Of a DNA stretch of 64,000 bases, positions 50,929 through 53,641 are shown piece by piece. A program made the position numbers and the translations under genes. The DNA lies in assembly GCF_000296445.1 (NCBI RefSeq), contig NZ_JH815198.1:436501-500500 (forward strand), in the 5' to 3' direction. Numbering within the stretch: position 1 is the first letter of the stretch; every line of letters begins with the position of its first letter. The notes below the pieces were generated by a model that saw only the letters and a program-made list of their open reading frames with translations, was not told the origin of the DNA and did no database searches. Origin of the DNA: Slackia piriformis YIT 12062. GTDB lineage: Bacteria > Actinomycetota > Coriobacteriia > Coriobacteriales > Eggerthellaceae.

Positions 50929-51291
50929 CTACGAACGGTGGCTTTTCTTTTCCACCTTTCCCGTGATGCGCCAGCGGTAGTTGGGGTTGTTTTTCAAAAA
51001 ACGGAATCTGCATACGAACGTGATGCCCAAGACGATGAGCGTGGTTGCCATGCATGTGGCGAAGAATTCTGCTACGAACAGATTTCCCTCGAGCAGCGCA
51101 TAAAGCGTAGCGAGCAGAAACAGCGCCGAAAGGCCGCCGTTGAGCACGATGAATATCTTGATGAGGACCTCTTTCGCTCGTGCAGGGGTCGACCTCCACG
51201 ATACAACGAGGTAGATGGCAAGGGCGATGATCGCCAGAATTATCAAAAGGGGCGCGATGCGATAAAGACGGGCTGCTATGAAGGCCGGCAT
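50929..51291 (-). CDS. Small integral membrane protein, unknown function
   Basis: A 120-residue protein with three or four hydrophobic helices (LLIILAIIALAIYLVV, FIVLNGGLSALFLLATLYALL, TTLIVLGITFVCRF) and a basic C-terminus (RWRITGKVEKKSHR). I do not recognise the family. AAGGAG precedes its ATG at 51291. It is divergent from the radical SAM DNA-metabolism genes and shares their 171-nt upstream region. Confidence 0.7.
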   Translation of the reverse strand: MPAFIAARLYRIAPLLIILAIIALAIYLVVSWRSTPARAKEVLIKIFIVLNGGLSALFLLATLYALLEGNLFVAEFFATCMATTLIVLGITFVCRFRFLKNNPNYRWRITGKVEKKSHRS

Positions 51292-51400: not shown

Positions 51401-51454
51401 CTTGAATCGAACATTTATTCGTATTACTATTATCGAATAAATGTTCGATTCAAG
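51401..51454 (+). promoter_or_regulatory. Promoter inside a 21-bp inverted repeat resembling two LexA (SOS) boxes
   Basis: Positions 51401-51421 and 51434-51454 are exact reverse complements, separated by 12 nt. Each arm contains a 14-nt near-palindrome, CGAACATTTATTCG (51408-51421) and CGAATAAATGTTCG (51434-51447). Each differs by one base from the Gram-positive LexA consensus core CGAAC-N4-GTTCG. A promoter TTGAAT (51402-51407), 17-nt spacer, TACTAT (51425-51430) is embedded between and over them. The right arm runs into the ribosome binding site AAGGAGG (51452-51458). Repressor binding would block RNA polymerase; the RNA could also fold over the ribosome site. LexA is an inference from the motif. 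Confidence 0.65.
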
Positions 51455-51462
51455 GAGGCGGC

Positions 51463-52774: not shown

Positions 52775-53641
52775 ATGGAAACGCTTGCGTACATATGCGA
52801 AGACTCCTTGGAAGGCATGCTTTCGGCGGTCTTCGAAGCATACGAACATCGGGAGTTTCCCGATGATATCGTGGTTCGGGGTCTGTTCCAGCAACGCTTG
52901 GGAGAAAAGGTCCGCTACGTGCAGACCGACATCGACCATGCATGCCGCGTGAGAGCCGGGCTTATCCGAACGTGCGGTTTCAGGGCGTATGAGGCCGTTC
53001 GGGCGGTGTATCTTTCGGACGATCGACGCAAAGGGTCGGCAATTCACGTTTTCGTGCGGTATGCAATGAAGCGCGGAACCCAGGCTCTTGACGACGTGGC
53101 TCATCCAGACGCCTCCGATTTCGTTGTCATCAATAGGTTCGTCTACAACGAGGTGCATCATTGGAAAGAGTTTCTTCGCTTTCGCCAGGCGGAAGGAGGG
53201 CTGTATTTTGCTCAGTGTAATCCGAAGGCGAGCGTTGTCCCGCTGCTTATGGGATGGTTTTCGGCTCGTTTCAACACGCAGGACTTCATGATTTACGACG
53301 AGGTTCATGCCCTTGCCGGAATCTCGCACGGCGGGTCTTGGGCCTTGGTGAAAACCGATGCTCTGGAGGTGCCTTCTGACACGGCTGAGGAGCGGTCGTA
53401 CGCGCGTGCTTGGAAAACGTTCTACGATGCCATCGCCGTGAAGGAGCGTCTCAACCCCGATTTACGCAGGCAGCTCATGCCCAAACGTTTCTGGGGCGAT
53501 ATGACAGAGATGAAAGAAGAGGCGCCCCGGAAGAGCGCCTCGGCAGGTGATTCTTCTGTTCAGATTGGCGAACCCACTGTAACGGGAGGATTGCCGATAT
53601 CGGCCCGAGCGAAACGAGCTCCCGTCGCCCTCGCCGATTGA
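52775..53641 (+). CDS. DNA-metabolism protein, partner of the radical SAM gene (TIGR03915-like)
   Basis: A 288-residue protein beginning METLAYICEDSLEGMLSAVFEAYEHR, typical of the conserved partner of the preceding radical SAM protein. The middle has NRFVYNEVHHWKEFLRFR and YFAQCNPKASVVPLLMGWF. In some genomes a uracil-DNA-glycosylase-like domain is fused to it; none is seen here, and the C-terminal 40 residues are low complexity. The start ATG 52775 lies 7 nt after the upstream stop, so the two genes are co-transcribed. The biochemical role is unknown; partnership in DNA repair is inferred from conserved pairing. Confidence 0.82.
   Translation: METLAYICEDSLEGMLSAVFEAYEHREFPDDIVVRGLFQQRLGEKVRYVQTDIDHACRVRAGLIRTCGFRAYEAVRAVYLSDDRRKGSAIHVFVRYAMKRGTQALDDVAHPDASDFVVINRFVYNEVHHWKEFLRFRQAEGGLYFAQCNPKASVVPLLMGWFSARFNTQDFMIYDEVHALAGISHGGSWALVKTDALEVPSDTAEERSYARAWKTFYDAIAVKERLNPDLRRQLMPKRFWGDMTEMKEEAPRKSASAGDSSVQIGEPTVTGGLPISARAKRAPVALAD

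Follow-up and report, generated by a model that had tools for sequence, protein, structure and literature searches.

The locus and its promoter

The window analyzed here is a stretch of 64,000 nucleotides (nt) of contig NZ_JH815198.1 from Slackia piriformis YIT 12062 (Eggerthellaceae), and the element in question is a perfect inverted repeat located directly upstream of two genes, which encode a radical S-adenosylmethionine (SAM) protein and a TIGR03915/DUF4130 protein (its partner; Table 1). The assignment of the two products to TIGR03916 and TIGR03915, which an initial annotation had made from the letters of the window, agrees with profile matches far above the curated cut-offs (588.9 bits vs. 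343.5, E 6e-177, and 212.9 bits vs. 112.25, E 6e-63, respectively). The repeat consists, as that annotation had described, of two arms of 21 nt with 100% complementarity and a loop of 12 nt. Among the perfect inverted repeats with a 3–40 nt loop it is the longest in the window, the runner-up being 14 bp, and the longest in five Markov-1 control windows reached at most 12 bp. Each arm contains a 14-mer one base away from CGAACN4GTTCG; these two boxes are 26 bp apart and have their mismatches at mirrored positions, and a motif scan recovered both of them as previously noted. The repeat encloses the promoter that had been read in it, namely TTGAAT and TACTAT at a spacing of 17 nt, with box 1 occupying most of the spacer.

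Table 1. Features of the repeat, the promoter, and the two-gene operon (positions in the window).
Feature	Position	Strand	Basis
Left arm of the inverted repeat (21 bp, perfect)	51401..51421	+	repeat search
-35 element TTGAAT	51402..51407	+	sequence; equivalent position in relatives
LexA-type box 1 (CGAACATTTATTCG), within the -35/-10 spacer	51408..51421	+	motif scan
-10 element TACTAT, within the loop that separates the boxes	51425..51430	+	sequence
Right arm of the inverted repeat	51434..51454	+	repeat search
LexA-type box 2 (CGAATAAATGTTCG), covering the predicted start of transcription	51434..51447	+	motif scan
Shine-Dalgarno sequence AAGGAGG, first three bases in the right arm	51452..51458	+	sequence
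Radical SAM protein, 434 amino acids, TIGR03916	51463..52767	+	profile match
TIGR03915/DUF4130 partner, 288 amino acids from ATG 52775; upstream GTG 52724 possible	52775..53641	+	profile match

Judging from the genome's own boxes and from those of its relatives, which lend good support to the earlier suggestion that two boxes flanking the -10 element form a LexA/SOS operator, the repeat is very probably a double LexA operator placed inside the core promoter of an SOS operon with two genes. The involvement of LexA is supported by boxes of this kind in front of lexA, recA, and the two genes for Y-family polymerases in this genome. Specifically, three boxes spaced 28 bp apart precede lexA, AGAACAAATGTTCG precedes recA, CAAACGTATGTTCG plus CGAATGAATGTTCG lie upstream of one Y-family polymerase gene, and GGAACACTTGTTCG lies upstream of the other; the initial annotation had proposed to look for the same cores before lexA, recA, and dinB-like genes, and the different box at lexA and recA that it had named as a refuting sign was not found. 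The LexA of this genome belongs to TIGR00498 (E 1e-67) and has the Ala-Gly, Ser, and Lys residues expected of a self-cleaving LexA (read by eye), and the genome also encodes RecA. The gene pair is preceded by the genome's own type of LexA box, which overlaps the promoter. Among the matches listed, boxes with at most one mismatch that are less than 30 bp apart form five clusters, which belong to lexA, one Y-family polymerase gene, the radical SAM operon, a gene for a 283-amino-acid protein, and one further site.

In the mechanism that we envisage, one LexA dimer would bind between the -35 and -10 elements and a second over the start site, and RNA polymerase would be excluded until LexA undergoes RecA-driven self-cleavage following DNA damage. 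The induced operon would then yield the radical SAM protein, equipped with a DNA-binding helix-hairpin-helix, together with the TIGR03915 partner, and the two would most likely act jointly on damaged DNA bases.

The 283-amino-acid protein, which has no Pfam or NCBIfam match, is encoded behind a second double LexA-type operator (L004:1478-1514; G000:C1:878900-878936), in which CGAACATCTGTTTG and CGAACAGATGTTCG are nearly mirrored 23 bp apart, and its gene is a candidate new SOS gene. On the other side of the repeat, a divergent gene for a 120-amino-acid protein (50929-51291, minus strand) is found near the operon in four of the five genus relatives having the pair, and the operator could act on this gene as well.

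Conservation of the boxes in relatives

A homolog of the radical SAM gene was found in 95 of 138 Eggerthellaceae genomes, and 90 upstream regions were obtained from these after removal of four partial matches (G093, G098, G111, and G127) and one match at a contig start (G123). A box with up to two mismatches is located near the gene in 87 of the 89 distinct upstream regions, compared with 9.2 in Markov shuffles, and at least two boxes are present in 82 of them, compared with 0.5 in the shuffles. When the full 260 nt are considered, all 90 upstream regions contain a box and 83 contain at least two; the near-gene counts are preferred, because the chance level is higher in the full upstream regions (14/89 with one box). 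The layout seen in S. piriformis, with a box within the -35/-10 spacer, recurs in 63 of the 89 regions, against an average of 0.05 and a maximum of 1 in the shuffles, and the -10 elements of the relatives read TAGAAT, TATTAT, and the like, mostly at a spacing of 17 nt. Two upstream regions on contigs that end early (L094 and L101) were misplaced in the spacer-box shuffles and in the Eggerthellaceae mirror test described below.

Beyond the family, 60 of the 94 genomes with a match were taken, and 59 of these 60 other Coriobacteriia have an upstream box with up to two mismatches, a count that comes without a shuffle baseline. Among homologs in named genomes the same kind of box was found in 65 of 80 (6.7 in shuffles), and among the 69 of these loci outside the family in 54 (5.6 in shuffles), mostly Clostridia by title. 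These 69 include several Coriobacteriia, and since the named-genome loci overlap the other genomes (e.g., L019/L222, L022/L230, and L026/L229), the two sets are not independent. A partner gene is present at 105 of 110 radical SAM loci.

Several counts weigh against the proposed double LexA operator. Within the genus, only 6 of 12 genomes have the radical SAM homolog, half being without the gene; the box-in-spacer layout is not shown by 26 of the 89 Eggerthellaceae upstream regions; and even with two mismatches allowed, no box precedes 15 of the 80 named-genome homologs, among them the loci of Bacteroidales, Geotalea, and Endomicrobium. In S. piriformis itself both boxes deviate from the consensus at one half-site, and the promoter is weak by consensus, scoring 8/12 in a generic promoter scan with a threshold of 9. 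One-mismatch boxes number 7 in the window, where 4.9 are expected, and 169 genome-wide, where a reversed control pattern gives 235. Single boxes are not above chance, and only pairing, position, and conservation carry weight; the layout of the promoter does recur in relatives.

The distance between the boxes had been related to about 2.5 helical turns, so that two repressor dimers could flank the -10 element. This argument from helical phase is weak, as box pairs around the -10 element of radical SAM genes occur at all of the spacings searched (23 to 29 bp), and strict phasing is not supported by these spacings or by 50 further adjacent pairs that are 16 bp apart. The 16-bp distance is that of the last boxes in the arrays found in some radical SAM leaders (e.g., L095, L096, L104, and L112), which comprise up to four LexA-like boxes and reach the region of the start codon. 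A variant of the box that ends in ATTC instead of GTTC accounts for 71 of 222 boxes before Eggerthellaceae radical SAM genes and for 3 of 313 before lexA.

Other readings of the repeat

The initial annotation had also considered that the extended symmetry may add an RNA hairpin that sequesters the ribosome site. A leader hairpin that hides this site or attenuates transcription would be in keeping with the folding of the whole region (-29.1 kcal/mol, z -7.0). However, the -10 element sits in the loop, so that the transcript is predicted to start at about 51437 (as inferred from the -10 element), inside the right arm, and the stem could not form. The RNA from 51437 onward folds unremarkably (z 0.64), the GAGG of the Shine-Dalgarno sequence lies outside the stem, there is no Rfam match at gathering scores and no terminator-like site in the region, and several of the pairs are broken in genus relatives that retain the boxes. 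An RNA hairpin is consequently a very unlikely explanation.

The palindrome might instead be bound by a dimeric repressor other than LexA, since one half-site of each box is off consensus and many local repressors typically use long perfect palindromes. Yet relatives conserve the box motif and not the 21-bp palindrome, the motif matches the boxes of lexA, recA, and the Y-family polymerase genes in this genome, and the nearest divergent gene encodes the aforementioned 120-amino-acid protein, for which no Pfam or NCBIfam match was obtained. We regard such a repressor as highly improbable. Perfect inverted repeats are also common in mobile elements, and the repeat could in principle be the end of such an element or a dispersed repeat. 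A search of this genome, which is 98.85% complete, with the 20-base arm pattern TTGAATCGAACATTTATTCG at up to three mismatches, however, found the two arms as its sole occurrences; at this level of mismatch a repeat element is refuted, and its probability is close to nil.

Mirror symmetry of the probable double operator

The six species of the genus that have the gene all retain two boxes 25–28 bp apart, with the intact half-site of each box facing outward and the weaker half-site facing the -10 element. Of the symmetry beyond the LexA cores, which the initial annotation found odd, the full 21-bp perfection is present in S. piriformis and absent from the five genus relatives with the gene; the arrangement of two boxes about the -10 element is shared with lexA. 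From the family, 111 lexA upstream regions were obtained from 129 genomes with a LexA match (one of them, L182, having an upstream of only 40 nt). In 108 of the 111, a -10-like hexamer lies between two boxes, each with up to three mismatches (0.9 in shuffles, largest 3), and one of the remaining three is cut by a contig end; the spacing is 28 bp in 100 of the 108. In box 1 of lexA there is a T-tract, in most cases CTTT, and in box 2 there is an A-tract, in most cases AAAA or AAAG, so that the double operator is close to a mirror about the -10 element.

The mirror symmetry may have arisen by mutation, through template switching that perfects quasi-palindromes, or by a chance overlap of the boxes, the -35 element, and the Shine-Dalgarno sequence, and would then have no role beyond that of the boxes; we give this origin about an even chance. 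It is favored by the small number of bases peculiar to S. piriformis, because one relative (G103) has a letter-identical left arm, two others (G101 and G105) share 18 bases of the right arm, and among genus relatives only the outermost matched AAG, which is part of the Shine-Dalgarno sequence, is particular to this species. It is also favored by a lexA upstream region from another genus (L199, in G072), whose 20-bp inverted repeat, perfect and closed by a 14-nt loop, runs through the -35 element and box 1. The N4 of 47 Eggerthellaceae radical SAM pairs, moreover, are mirrored no better than with permuted partners (p 0.64), and a general mirror rule for radical SAM promoters thus has no support within this family. 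On the other hand, full N4 mirrors occur in 43 of the 108 lexA operators, compared with 34.5 under permutation of the partners. When each genus contributes one row, mean mirror agreement has a median p of 0.01 and full mirrors have one of 0.025. Radical SAM genes of other Coriobacteriia likewise show full mirrors in 6 of 21 pairs, where 1.25 are expected (p 0.0006), although three full direct repeats were found there as well. Relatedness inflates the p-values of these last two comparisons.

Most of the symmetry is thus a position-specific base preference, with a modest covariation that shared ancestry may inflate. At the level of sequence, the mirror is best described as a putative two-box operator about the -10 element, as in lexA's own promoter, and the last few matched bases are local and probably serve no function by themselves. 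The repeat in L199 shows the same design as that in the window.

The radical SAM protein and its partner

The radical SAM protein contains a CX3CX2C motif at residues 64-71 (Cys 64, 68, and 71). In an alignment of 32 sequences, on which the model and the conservation analysis are based, Cys 20, 43, and 52 are invariant and Cys 389 is conserved at 94%; these additional cysteines suggest a second cluster, which we offer as a lead only, residues 16-40 of the model being of low confidence. The helix-hairpin-helix noted earlier in this protein is visible at residues 335-365, and its score of 24.3 bits falls below the Pfam cut-off of 27. The predicted structure (predicted local distance difference test score, pLDDT, of 77) is a barrel whose nearest neighbors are lipoyl synthase, MqnE, HydE, and biotin synthase (Z about 14-15), and the profile of the protein gave only weak matches to Protein Data Bank (PDB) sequences, most of them from proteins of the radical SAM and helix-hairpin-helix kinds (best E 0.003). 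Many matches of the radical SAM protein to family f2 homologs (e.g., in G224 and G139) are split into two segments, the first of which ends at around residue 200-230, which suggests that the middle of the protein carries an insertion.

The model of the partner (pLDDT 86) is similar to DHH/DHHA1 proteins, among them PAP phosphatase, RecJ, and Cdc45. Its best Foldseek match is 8a8k (E 8e-5; Z 8.8 over 187 residues at a root-mean-square deviation of 4.8), and the Z values against RecJ and Cdc45 are mostly 5.5-7.5; TM-scores are low, and the top Foldseek rows belong to the DHH/DHHA1 superfamily. No DHH motif was seen among the conserved residues in an alignment of 34 of the 105 partner homologs (L023, L046, L086, L113, and L115 left out), and neither DHH nor DHHA1 appeared among the Pfam matches of these 34 members. 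Comparison by hhalign with an NrnA profile of 21 sequences (L286 and L303 left out) gave a probability of 0.1%, hhalign detected no sequence homology with the radical SAM protein, and a search of PDB sequences yielded no match at E<=1. Our guess is that the partner may be non-catalytic and hold DNA. A defence system was rejected on PADLOC-DB, in which neither protein has a match at E<=0.01.

LexA repression, an ordinary mechanism, is strongly supported here for the gene pair, and the interest of the locus lies mostly in this pair and less in the repeat. A pair annotated as "putative DNA repair" is subject, from Coriobacteriia to Clostridia, to a LexA-type control that is strongly conserved; the conservation of this control ties the pair to the DNA-damage response, and its activity should be sought after damage. 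The repair of bases by radical chemistry is guessed from the domains; concrete handles on the chemistry are provided by the partner's DHH-like fold and by the additional cysteines conserved in the radical SAM protein. It is tempting to speculate, tentatively and with the odds against it, that the pair constitutes a widespread SOS-induced repair system whose chemistry is its own. In it, a radical SAM enzyme that scans DNA and carries a second iron-sulphur cluster (Cys 20, 43, 52, and perhaps 389), together with a non-catalytic, Cdc45/RecJ-like, DNA-holding partner, might mend a lesion for which no reversing pathway is known, and the mirror-image LexA double operator that controls them would be unusually tight and of the type found at lexA.

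Comparison with known systems

The box CGAACN4GTTCG is that of Gram-positive LexA/SOS regulons, as at lexA, recA, and the Y-family polymerase genes here. Passages on such regulons count a radical SAM protein in the core Gram-positive SOS regulon (PMC7739468) and include the radical SAM protein vnz_31145 in the LexA list of Streptomyces venezuelae (PMC9380542). As worded there, these proteins may be SplB or members of another family, and the S. piriformis operon differs from the regulons described in those passages in having two boxes set about the -10 element. No report naming the TIGR03916/TIGR03915 pair for Coriobacteriia or Clostridia was found in our literature search, and neither "radical SAM" nor "uracil" occurs in the main text of a paper on C. 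difficile LexA (PMC4234289). DUF4130 has been linked to "SplB-like" enzymes and uracil-DNA glycosylases in a passage which states that it might modify thymines (PMC3765255).

The spore photoproduct lyase SplB is likewise a radical SAM enzyme tied to DNA repair. Unlike SplB, the radical SAM protein of S. piriformis has extra conserved cysteines and a helix-hairpin-helix, and at E<=0.001 it matches TIGR03916 alone among NCBIfam models (which Spl models the library holds was not checked). The model of the partner resembles DHH/DHHA1 proteins (NrnA, RecJ, and Cdc45) in its top Foldseek rows, and the partner differs from them in showing no DHH motif among its conserved residues and no match to the NrnA profile.

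COG4277 is presumably the TIGR03916-type radical SAM protein, and SOS control of what we take to be the same pair has already been published for other phyla. According to passages of PMC8565304, LexA is predicted to control a Bacteroidetes operon made up of the two genes COG1573 and COG4277, and systems of this type had earlier been reported to be under SOS control in Verrucomicrobia and Alphaproteobacteria. As described in those passages, the Bacteroidetes operon has different LexA motifs and includes a uracil-DNA glycosylase in the pair, whereas the partner in S. piriformis is a stand-alone TIGR03915 protein.
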